Shown here one piece after another: positions 57,902 to 59,691 of a stretch of DNA of 64,000 bases. Origin of the DNA: Paraglaciecola sp. MB-3u-78 (GTDB lineage: Bacteria; Pseudomonadota; Gammaproteobacteria; Enterobacterales; Alteromonadaceae); contig NZ_PJCF01000012.1 in NCBI RefSeq assembly GCF_002835935.1, forward strand, positions 186,001-250,000. Reading direction: 5' to 3'. The position numbers were made by a program, and so were the translations under genes. Position 1 is the first letter of the stretch; each line of letters starts with the position of its first letter. The notes below the pieces were generated by a model, which ran no database searches, was not told the DNA's origin, and saw only the letters and a program-made list of their open reading frames with translations.

Positions 57902-58302
57902 CTTGTCAGCTTTGTGGATTGACGGTGATTCCTAACCGAGCGAATGACAATCCCTTCTTCTAAAAATTCATCCCCATCTTTTAGTTGGTAGGTCGTGTCA
58001 GTATCGCTTCCTGACAATAGACACTGCTTTTTACGGTCATAGAGTTTACACATGAACACACCATTTAATGTCGCCACTATGATGTCCATGTTGGCTTGCC
58101 TGGCTGCTCGGTCAACGATTAATACATCACCATCAAAGATGCCGTGGCTTGTCATACTGTCTCCTACTGCAAGGCCTACAAACGTCGCAGTTGGGTGGTC
58201 AATAAGTATTTCATCAAGAGACATCGGTAGTGTTTGGTACTCTGATGCGGGCGACTCGAAACCGGTTATGCCAGCCTGAGCTTTGATCGGTATAATATTC
58301 AT
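57889..58302 (-). CDS. umuD: UmuD, self-cleaving subunit of DNA polymerase V
   Basis: A 137-residue S24-family protein. The RecA-induced cleavage site is AG at residues 10-11; the catalytic pair is Ser49 (GDSM) and Lys86 (MCKLYD), spaced 37 residues as in E. coli UmuD (S60/K97). Cleaved UmuD joins UmuC to form polymerase V. ATG at 58302 is followed by a normal start MNIIPIKAQAG. Only half of its LexA box (58317-58328) remains beside the gene because an IS1595-type element begins at 58329; the promoter lies on the far side of the element. Confidence 0.95.
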   Translation of the reverse strand: MNIIPIKAQAGITGFESPASEYQTLPMSLDEILIDHPTATFVGLAVGDSMTSHGIFDGDVLIVDRAARQANMDIIVATLNGVFMCKLYDRKKQCLLSGSDTDTTYQLKDGDEFLEEGIVIRSVRNHRQSTKLTRCLG

Positions 58303-58316
58303 TACATCTCATAATA

Positions 58317-58328
58317 CTGTATTTGCAT
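58317..58328 (-). promoter_or_regulatory. Gene-proximal part of the umuDC LexA operator
   Basis: CTGTATTTGCAT, the left 12 of the 16 bases of CTGTATTTGCATACAG. The final ACAG was displaced to the other side of the insertion element. The box lies 15 bp before the umuD ATG. Confidence 0.85.
58321..58328. repeat. Target-site duplication, left (ATTTGCAT)
   Basis: Identical 8 bases occur at 59369-59376 on the other side of the element; they are the central 8 bases of the original LexA operator. Confidence 0.93.
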
Positions 58329-59368
58329 AAGGGGTATCCTGTTAGCTCCACTACCCACTACATGTTGTGTTTAGCGCTTTTTGATATTTTCATAACTAAC
58401 GGGCGGTGTAACCACCGCTTGTTCAAGCAATCTATAAAATAGTAAACCACGTGAATTAGATGCTCGACGATTAAAACGAAAGGCATATTCGTCGAGATAA
58501 CTATCTAAATGTTCATGCCCTACTGAGCCTTGATGAGTTCCTAATATCCATCTTTTCAATAGTGAAGCGACTCTATGCACACCGACTAGCGTCTCATGAG
58601 CAGGCTCTTTAGACCCAAGTTGAACCAACTTATTACGCTCATAACCAAGCTCATAAATTCTATGATAGGCACTTGAACCATCTGTTTGGACGACTGAACC
58701 GGGCTCTATCGTTTCTTGTATAAACGAATGCAATTGAACTTGCGTTGCCGCTTCAATACGTTTTAACCTTATTCTGCCAAATCCCTTGGGCTTTTTAATT
58801 TCAACCGCTATCGCCACAATTGATTTCTTACTTTGGGCACAAGGAGCACGGGTTTTGGCTTTATCAGCGCCACCCACGTAGGTTTCATCTACTTCGACAA
58901 TACCTGATAATTTTCCGCGACTGGGGTTGACCATCGCCCGCCGGTAACGATGTAACATTGTCCATGCAGTTTGATAACTACCTAACCCAAGTAACCTTTG
59001 CAGACCTAACGCACTCACTCCGTGCTTTTCATTAGTGATATACCAAGCTGCGGCAAACCAATTAGTTAAGGGAGTTCGGCTTTTTTCAAATAGTGTTCCT
59101 GCTGTCACCGTGCCTTGATATCGACATATAGAACACATCATTCGACCGCGAGTTAAGTGATAAGGTTTGGATAATTTGAGACAACGTGGGCATACAAAAC
59201 CAGAGGGCCAACGTAAGTGCTCCAGAAACTGAAGGCATGCATTATCATCCGGAAACCATTGTAAAAACTGAGTCCAATTTCCGGGATAATCTCTACCTGA
59301 TTTTAGTGAATTTGATGAAATAGCCACCACTACATATTGACATAGGTGGAGCTAAGTGGATACCCCTT
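58329..59368 (-). mobile_element. IS1595-family insertion sequence in the umuDC operator, complete (1,040 bp)
   Basis: The ends are inverse copies: AAGGGGTATCCTGTTAGCTC on the left and AAGGGGTATCCACTTAGCTC as the reverse complement of the right end. An 8-bp target duplication (ATTTGCAT) flanks it. The transposase reads towards umuD, so transcription from inside the element could run into umuDC. The element differs from the one at 38551-39524. Confidence 0.95.
58371..59330 (-). CDS. IS1595-family transposase
   Basis: A 319-residue transposase: zinc ribbon CPRCLKLSKPYH...CSICR (about residues 47-70), then the ISXO2-type DDE domain with VEVDETYVGGADKAK (first Asp near 147), VVQTDGSSAY (second near 216) and HLDSYLDEYAFRFNRRAS near the end. 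The frame is full length without interruption, so the element may be mobile. It is distinct from the first IS1595-type transposase here. It faces the same way as umuDC. Confidence 0.94.
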   Translation of the reverse strand: MVAISSNSLKSGRDYPGNWTQFLQWFPDDNACLQFLEHLRWPSGFVCPRCLKLSKPYHLTRGRMMCSICRYQGTVTAGTLFEKSRTPLTNWFAAAWYITNEKHGVSALGLQRLLGLGSYQTAWTMLHRYRRAMVNPSRGKLSGIVEVDETYVGGADKAKTRAPCAQSKKSIVAIAVEIKKPKGFGRIRLKRIEAATQVQLHSFIQETIEPGSVVQTDGSSAYHRIYELGYERNKLVQLGSKEPAHETLVGVHRVASLLKRWILGTHQGSVGHEHLDSYLDEYAFRFNRRASNSRGLLFYRLLEQAVVTPPVSYENIKKR

Positions 59369-59376
59369 ATTTGCAT
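59369..59376. repeat. Target-site duplication, right (ATTTGCAT)
   Basis: Identical to 58321-58328. Confidence 0.93.
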
Positions 59377-59380
59377 ACAG
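59369..59380 (-). promoter_or_regulatory. Promoter-proximal part of the umuDC LexA operator
   Basis: ATTTGCATACAG, the other 12 of the 16 operator bases; the first 8 are the duplicated target. On the minus strand TATAAT (59382-59387) lies next to it as a likely -10, with a weak TTGCTA 19 bases further upstream. Confidence 0.8.
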
Positions 59381-59691
59381 TATTATAGCGCGAATTATAG
59401 GATAGATAGCAAGAATATTAATTGATAGTGGGGGTGATATTGAATTCATACCTGCCAGACAACACTTCTTTTAATATTGCAATTTGCCTAGGCATCGCTG
59501 AGAATAAGGCCCATATGAGGTTGACTCAATTTGGTAGCTGAAATAGTCGAACAAGTGGCAAGAAACTACAGGTCAATTATCTTCAGTATTTTAACAGCAT
59601 CACAATATGCGTATTTTACACATTATTAATGGATCTAATTTCTTGGTGCGCAAGTACTAAGAGGTGCATTAATCATATCGTTAGCCTTAAT
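59381..59691. other. Gene-free stretch with the orphaned umuDC promoter
   Basis: Apart from the TATAAT at 59382-59387 (minus strand) I see no gene or strong repeat in these 311 bases. Confidence 0.5.

Follow-up and report, generated by a model that had tools for sequence, protein, structure and literature searches.

Several mobile elements are known to choose their insertion sites. Tn7 inserts at glmS, IS1397 is found in REP sequences, and other elements seek attC or res sites. Host proteins may take part in such a choice: in the accessible part of PMC11335895, H-NS is described as a transposon capture protein steering the landing of IS elements. A link between mobile elements and the SOS response was reported in PMC13393415 (2026), whose available sections describe ISCR transposase promoters as LexA-controlled through CTGT-N8-ACAG boxes and give this motif as the LexA box of beta- and gammaproteobacteria. 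ISCsp2, a relative of the element described here, is named in PMC8406286, the accessible portion of which is silent on its target. The open-licence literature of PubMed Central, as far as its texts were accessible, yielded no description of an IS that targets LexA boxes. The window, i.e. the whole stretch of DNA analysed here, comprises 64,000 nucleotides of Paraglaciecola sp. MB-3u-78 and contains an IS1595-family element in front of umuDC.

The element and the umuDC operator

The element spans 1,040 bp (58329-59368, minus strand according to its transposase gene). Its inverted ends, AAGGGGTATCC and GGATACCCCTT, are complementary at 21 of 24 bases, and flank comparison revealed a target duplication, ATTTGCAT, with one copy on the umuD side (58321-58328) and one on the promoter side (59369-59376), which agree at 8/8 positions. 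Target duplications of 8 bp are of IS1595-family length. The transposase gene (58371-59330, minus strand; GTG start, 319 aa) is the only frame of at least 80 aa within the element, and its start codon is located 38 bp inside. The models NF033547 (186.8 bits, cut-off 75), PF12762 (108, cut-off 27) and PF12760 (52.6, cut-off 25.4) all exceeded their cut-offs. By these models, the inverted ends and the 8-bp duplication, the element belongs to the IS1595 family, the type proposed in an earlier sequence-only reading. Transposases labelled ISCsp2 family in plasmid records are about 60% identical. In structure comparisons the AlphaFold2 model (mean pLDDT 83) matched transposases and integrases of the RNase H type, all with low TM-scores, and no match accounted for the choice of target.

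The genes toward which the transposase gene is oriented, as noted before, are umuD (58302-57889, minus strand, 137 aa) and umuC (57901-56630, minus strand, 423 aa), both with open frames. For umuD, the S24 peptidase model was above its cut-off and the Pol V subunit model reached 85.6 bits, below the cut-off of 110; for umuC, the IMS domains were at or above cut-off and the UmuC model reached 357.9 bits, below the cut-off of 431. The two copies of ATTTGCAT are bracketed by CTGT (58317-58320) and ACAG (59377-59380). If the element is excised and the flanks are joined, CTGTATTTGCATACAG is obtained upstream of umuD, which bears out the earlier claim of an insertion precisely into the umuDC LexA operator. 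The duplication corresponds exactly to the central 8 bases of the 16-bp box, also as proposed, the insertion points being 4 bp from the dyad on each side. The parts of the split box, CTGTATTTGCAT on the umuD side (58317-58328) and ATTTGCATACAG on the promoter side (59369-59380), were defined by reading of the flanks and by a matrix derived from insertion sites. The distance from the box to the ATG at 58302 is 14 bases and not 15, as had been stated. A TATAAT on the far side of the element (59382-59387, minus strand), likely the -10 region of the umuDC promoter, now faces the transposase gene, so that umuDC is indeed separated from it; another TATAAT is present at 59394-59399. The number of promoter-like matches around it did not exceed chance level (three found, 3.4 expected).

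Among 22 genomes of the genus, UmuD matches were detected in 10. The closest proteins, 93% identical and encoded in two sister genomes (G019 and G012), are preceded at the same place by the intact boxes CTGTACGTACATACAG and CTGTACACCCATACAG. Immediately upstream of each box is the same TATAAT, and neither site has an insertion; the empty site called for by the earlier reading therefore exists. CTG-N10-CAG lies just before the gene in all 15 other umuD hits of the 22 genomes, including the second umuD of this strain (L211, G000:C6:146387-146788), which retains an intact box, CTGTATATAATTACAG. An alternative intact LexA box for the interrupted umuD was also sought, and no CTG-N10-CAG was detected within 300 bp upstream, nearly all of which is inside the element. 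Judged by its bases, the joined box matches the Beta/Gammaproteobacterial LexA operator, and relatives have kept it in front of the same gene.

Each junction retains 12 box bases and lacks one conserved CTG/CAG triplet, which agrees with the earlier description of both box copies as incomplete. The matrix score drops from 20.9 for the intact box to 5.7 at the junction, while the lowest of 48 insertion sites analysed below scored 9.8. According to the available sections of PMC13393415, in tests of ISCR promoters a LexA box was no longer shifted with LexA when one terminal triplet was changed, and expression rose 10.6- to 48.5-fold. Since a conserved triplet is gone from each half-box and the promoter reads into transposase and umuDC, LexA control at umuDC is probably lost. 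We consider derepression, not silencing, moderately likely. LexA, with one conserved triplet missing per box copy, would no longer hold the umuDC promoter, and the former SOS promoter would transcribe the transposase gene and umuDC as one unit. Read-through into umuDC is plausible, as only a single terminator-like hairpin, at chance level and near the end of the transposase gene, is in the way. Silencing, constitutive expression and an IS promoter had been put forward before; among these, release from LexA combined with transcription that starts at the former umuDC promoter and crosses the element appears to fit best.

Target sites of related elements

Four identical copies of the element are present in the genome, which suggests recent movement. 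All four are located inside LexA boxes with the duplication equal to the box core, their targets being umuDC, dinB (Pol IV), a partial integron integrase gene and an ISCR/IS91-type transposase gene. The copy at dinB (L003, G000:C12:748198-752235) splits the LexA box of that gene, and umuDC and dinB are thus struck in one strain. Both error-prone polymerases may therefore have left SOS control. For a related subfamily with AAGGGCTATCC ends, eight of nine ends matching the end pattern adjoin CTG/CAG half-boxes in register, a similar end without a match (L012, G000) being left out of this count. The exception is the right end of L219 (= L007), which has no half-box. Three related-element ends lie within about 8 kb in L215 (G000:C8:24000-41000), each at a CTGT/ACAG half-box; an integron-integrase-like frame and a group II intron-like frame, both recognized by eye, are found nearby.

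For a wider survey, the best 80 of 133 relatives from a transposase search of genome contigs and 14 of 361 plasmid records were taken, and further copies were sought in 12 genomes or records. Element ends were located via inverted repeats and duplications. The resulting 130 end records were condensed to 64 distinct two-ended and 19 one-ended ones (in L016, one of the 19 is a spurious second match); loci assigned by the transposase tree to outgroups or to an actinobacterial clade were excluded. Of the two-ended sites, 48 had at least seven of eight duplication bases. In this set, drawn from the best 80 of 133 relatives, the plasmids and the further copies, CTG-N10-CAG was present in a single register in 46 of 48 distinct sites and CTGT-N8-ACAG in 38, while about 0.01 of 48 sites with CTG-N10-CAG would be expected by chance. 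The remaining two sites deviate from CTG-N10-CAG by one base each. Nearly all hosts are Beta/Gammaproteobacteria, but the 48 sites do not represent 48 independent species, as some hosts contribute more than one site (G315 has nine copies) and a few of the sites are found repeatedly in front of similar mobile genes. Chance is excluded for the placement in the box by the common register of 46/48 sites together with the intact box in two sisters. The insertion at umuDC, treated before as a single event, belongs to a lineage that repeatedly enters LexA boxes.

The symmetrised consensus from the 48 sites alone is AAAATACTGTATATATATACAGTATTTT, with C, T and G of the left triplet each at 100%. Compared with the E. 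coli LexA consensus, it is the LexA operator. Operators of this type were found before lexA in three proteobacterial hosts. Less complete members gave a more mixed picture. Among the 16 two-ended sites without a clean duplication, nine have both half-boxes in register and three the one half that is visible; one half is off register in L017, L063 and L076, and the right half is absent in L022. One-ended members show a half-box in register in 11 of 18 cases. It is lacking in L007, L023, L069, L078, L079 and L094, the last being a long branch without a box inside the proteobacterial clade, and off register in L080 (Duganella). The ISCsp2-type copy L107 and a new element from a later search of 399 genomes (L229) also fit a LexA-box target. 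In 295 genomes of the order, matches at E 1e-70 were confined to this genome, and close copies by DNA were found in two more genomes of the genus (G003 and G012). A search of 385 genomes from the class of an alphaproteobacterial MAG, in which a third LexA box type was sought, returned the starting genome alone at E 1e-75, and a phage search yielded two records with about 31% identity.

Neighbouring genes were analysed with profile searches at 43 of the 64 sites, chosen by a plausible reading frame and not blindly. At 32 of these 43, the element adjoins a gene classed as SOS or DNA-damage type, some matches being partial or below model cut-off and five radical SAM neighbours being probable members of this class. 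The types comprise lexA, recA, umuD-type, imuA, imuB-like, dnaE2, dinG, Rad3-like helicase, uvrA, UvrD-like helicase, FAN1-like nuclease, radical SAM, SRAP and integron integrases. The struck gene is recA in Thiomonas (L028), and in an uncultured Chromatiaceae (L075) a member interrupts the operator of the lexA gene, whereby autoregulation of LexA would be lost. Three of the 43 sites adjoin IS91/ISCR transposase genes: boxes in this genome (L002, G000:C23), on a Diaphorobacter plasmid (L107) and in Polaromonas (L155) precede such genes, with start codons 17-50 bp from the element. The accessible part of PMC13393415 presents ISCR promoters as proven LexA targets, which gives independent support for these three sites; they in turn extend that finding to other hosts. 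No SOS, DNA-damage or IS91/ISCR neighbour was recognized at eight of the 43 profiled sites (L025, L033, L039, L057, L074, L105, L148 and L152).

Promoter capture was considered as a strict rule and rejected. Among 35 sites with assigned neighbours, L001 included, the transposase gene points toward the neighbour in 22 and away in 13 (p 0.18), L017 with integrase pieces on both sides being scored as away. Orientation thus fails to track the promoter, and promoter capture is not required. In the 48 clean copies, the element's own space upstream of the transposase gene measures 23-58 bp.

A midpoint-rooted transposase tree (FastTree, without support values) places an actinobacterial clade as sister group of the proteobacterial one. 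Apart from L087 and L112, its members were found when 396 and 394 genomes were searched. Their left flanks read, for example, TCGA-ACACATGT, TCGA-ACACATCT, TCGA-ACATTCGT and TCGA-ACTGATGT, and T[CA]GA-A is in register at 13 of 14 left ends, L184-L186 being near-identical and several ends placed by similarity. Sites with a full duplication are TCGA-ATCTGTAT-TCGA (L087) and TAGA-ACATAGCT-ACGA (L182). The register is that of the proteobacterial clade, the duplication forming the central 8 of 16 bases. In the accessible text of PMC9380542, the LexA motif determined by ChIP-seq in Streptomyces is tCGAAC-N4-GNNCGa; on this comparison the target, TCGA-ACN4GT, is the actinobacterial LexA box. GAAY-N4-RTTC was found before lexA in five of seven actinobacterial hosts. 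Of three new left ends, L224 and L226 agree with a prediction set before the last searches, and L223 agrees only partly. The actinobacterial set weighs less than the proteobacterial one, because several elements are without a right end and only three of the five right ends seen are TCGA (L087, L181 and L223, not L178 and L182). Flanking genes include imuA' (L178), an Rv2578c-type radical SAM fragment (L179) and genes for DUF222 proteins (L087 and L183). The inverted end begins with TC in L178, L180, L181 and L087, and nearly so in L179. In the first four the left junction thereby restores GAAY-N4-RTTC, and LexA may still regulate these copies. Likewise, CTG-N10-CAG lies across the left end of L080.

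Thirteen distant IS1595 elements with duplications (L002b, L089, L092, L095, L096, L110, L111, L159, L164, L167, L173, L176 and L177) are at neither full box. A clean site was lacking in L081, L083-L086, L088, L090, L091, L097-L099 and L160-L163, among them the nearest outgroups L081, L084 and L091. The simplest reading of the tree and the sites would be a single origin of the LexA-box habit, before the split between the proteobacterial and the actinobacterial clade. Two actinobacterial outgroup elements, L167 and L096, are inserted in other palindromes, GGATA-N8-TATCC and GCATA-N8-TATGC, which may be operators of other repressors.

How the sites are found

From the sites it appears almost certain that this IS1595 lineage, with its relatives including ISCsp2, targets LexA operators. 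As to how an operator is recognized, we lean slightly toward guidance by LexA over direct reading of the DNA by the transposase. The transposase would locate its site through the LexA-operator complex, the landing pad being LexA or the DNA shape that LexA imposes. Guidance by this complex would account for a target that varies along with LexA's own site in an unchanging register, and the parallel shift of target and host phylum favours it. That a host stress-response repressor serves as landing pad, with the target shifting when the lineage enters hosts with a different LexA site, is in our estimate evenly balanced. As LexA leaves its boxes after DNA damage, transposition would then depend on the SOS state. 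The habit may benefit the element, which would gain a host promoter in some orientations, mostly avoid coding sequence and find a target in most hosts. The explanation as a whole seems to us highly probable.

The strongest alternative is that the transposase itself reads CTGTA-N6-TACAG or TCGAAC-N4-GTTCGA without LexA, its DNA-reading surface having co-evolved with the LexA boxes of the hosts. We hold it to be possible, though we incline somewhat against it. A helical region of the model at about residues 107-133 could read DNA, and the information in the sites peaks in CTG/CAG. An Enterobacter plasmid copy (L105) lies at CTG-N10-CAG with four GC in the core; the site immediately precedes the region of an ISL3 transposase gene that encodes the catalytic part and is apparently inside that gene, which favours direct reading. 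In Polaromonas (G320), the core has 4-5 GC at three of five sites, and an AT-rich core is thus not required. On the other hand, direct reading would have to match LexA's site in two phyla in identical register, and most unhit sites in Acidovorax temperans (G315) are GC-rich in the core. In this strain, the core contains on average 1.3 GC of 8 at seven hit CTGT-N8-ACAG sites and 4.7 at 42 unhit ones (p 1e-4). The seven are those of nine with the exact outer pattern, which L038 and L045 lack, and the 42 include repeats. The hit sites also outscore the unhit ones overall (p 3e-5) with a matrix trained without these sites, although one hit site (15.9) is below the best unhit ones (16.9). AT-rich hit cores and higher scores indicate that the core matters there, as it does for LexA.

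A mere preference for AT-rich palindromes, of which LexA boxes would be common examples, is very improbable. The loosely palindromic sites of the outgroups L096 and L167 would agree with it, but the consensus is specific in its left triplet, 46/48 sites are of one operator type, the 48 sites already point to other palindromic operators going unhit, and the actinobacterial TCGAAC-N4-GT is not AT-rich. Near-random insertion, with only copies in LexA boxes kept through SOS gene deregulation, is scarcely credible: deregulation could matter for most assigned neighbours, but selection on expression could not hold the cut to a single base pair at 46/48 box centres or across two phyla, and orientations vary among sites.

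Comparison with known systems

Guidance by LexA, if it applies, would provide a simple and testable bacterial case of transcription-factor-guided integration. Movement of these elements is tied to the SOS network and would change the control of error-prone polymerases, recA, integron integrases and even lexA in natural populations, and the insertion sites form a natural catalogue of the LexA operators of little-studied bacteria.

With ISCsp2 and other IS1595 elements, the element shares family models above cut-off and the 8-bp duplication, and the ISCsp2-type copy L107 shares the LexA-box target; the difference from IS1595 at large is that the thirteen distant elements are found outside such boxes. 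As with Tn7, IS1397 and elements seeking attC or res, a fixed target sequence and register are combined with little harm to genes. Here, however, the element goes to the operator of a global repressor, a target found at many loci and varying with the host phylum. Unlike Tn7, the element has one long gene and is without a separate target-selection protein. The likeness to capture by H-NS, as presented in the accessible part of PMC11335895, is a host DNA-binding protein that steers IS elements, a role that LexA may play here. H-NS is described there as acting over bound regions via DNA bridging, whereas the choice in the present case is exact to the base within a 16-bp box. The SOS-controlled ISCR elements of PMC13393415, as far as its available sections go, are likewise mobile elements linked to LexA through CTGT-N8-ACAG. 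They carry the box in their own promoter, whereas for the IS1595 lineage the box is the place of insertion, also in front of ISCR/IS91 genes (L002, L107 and L155).
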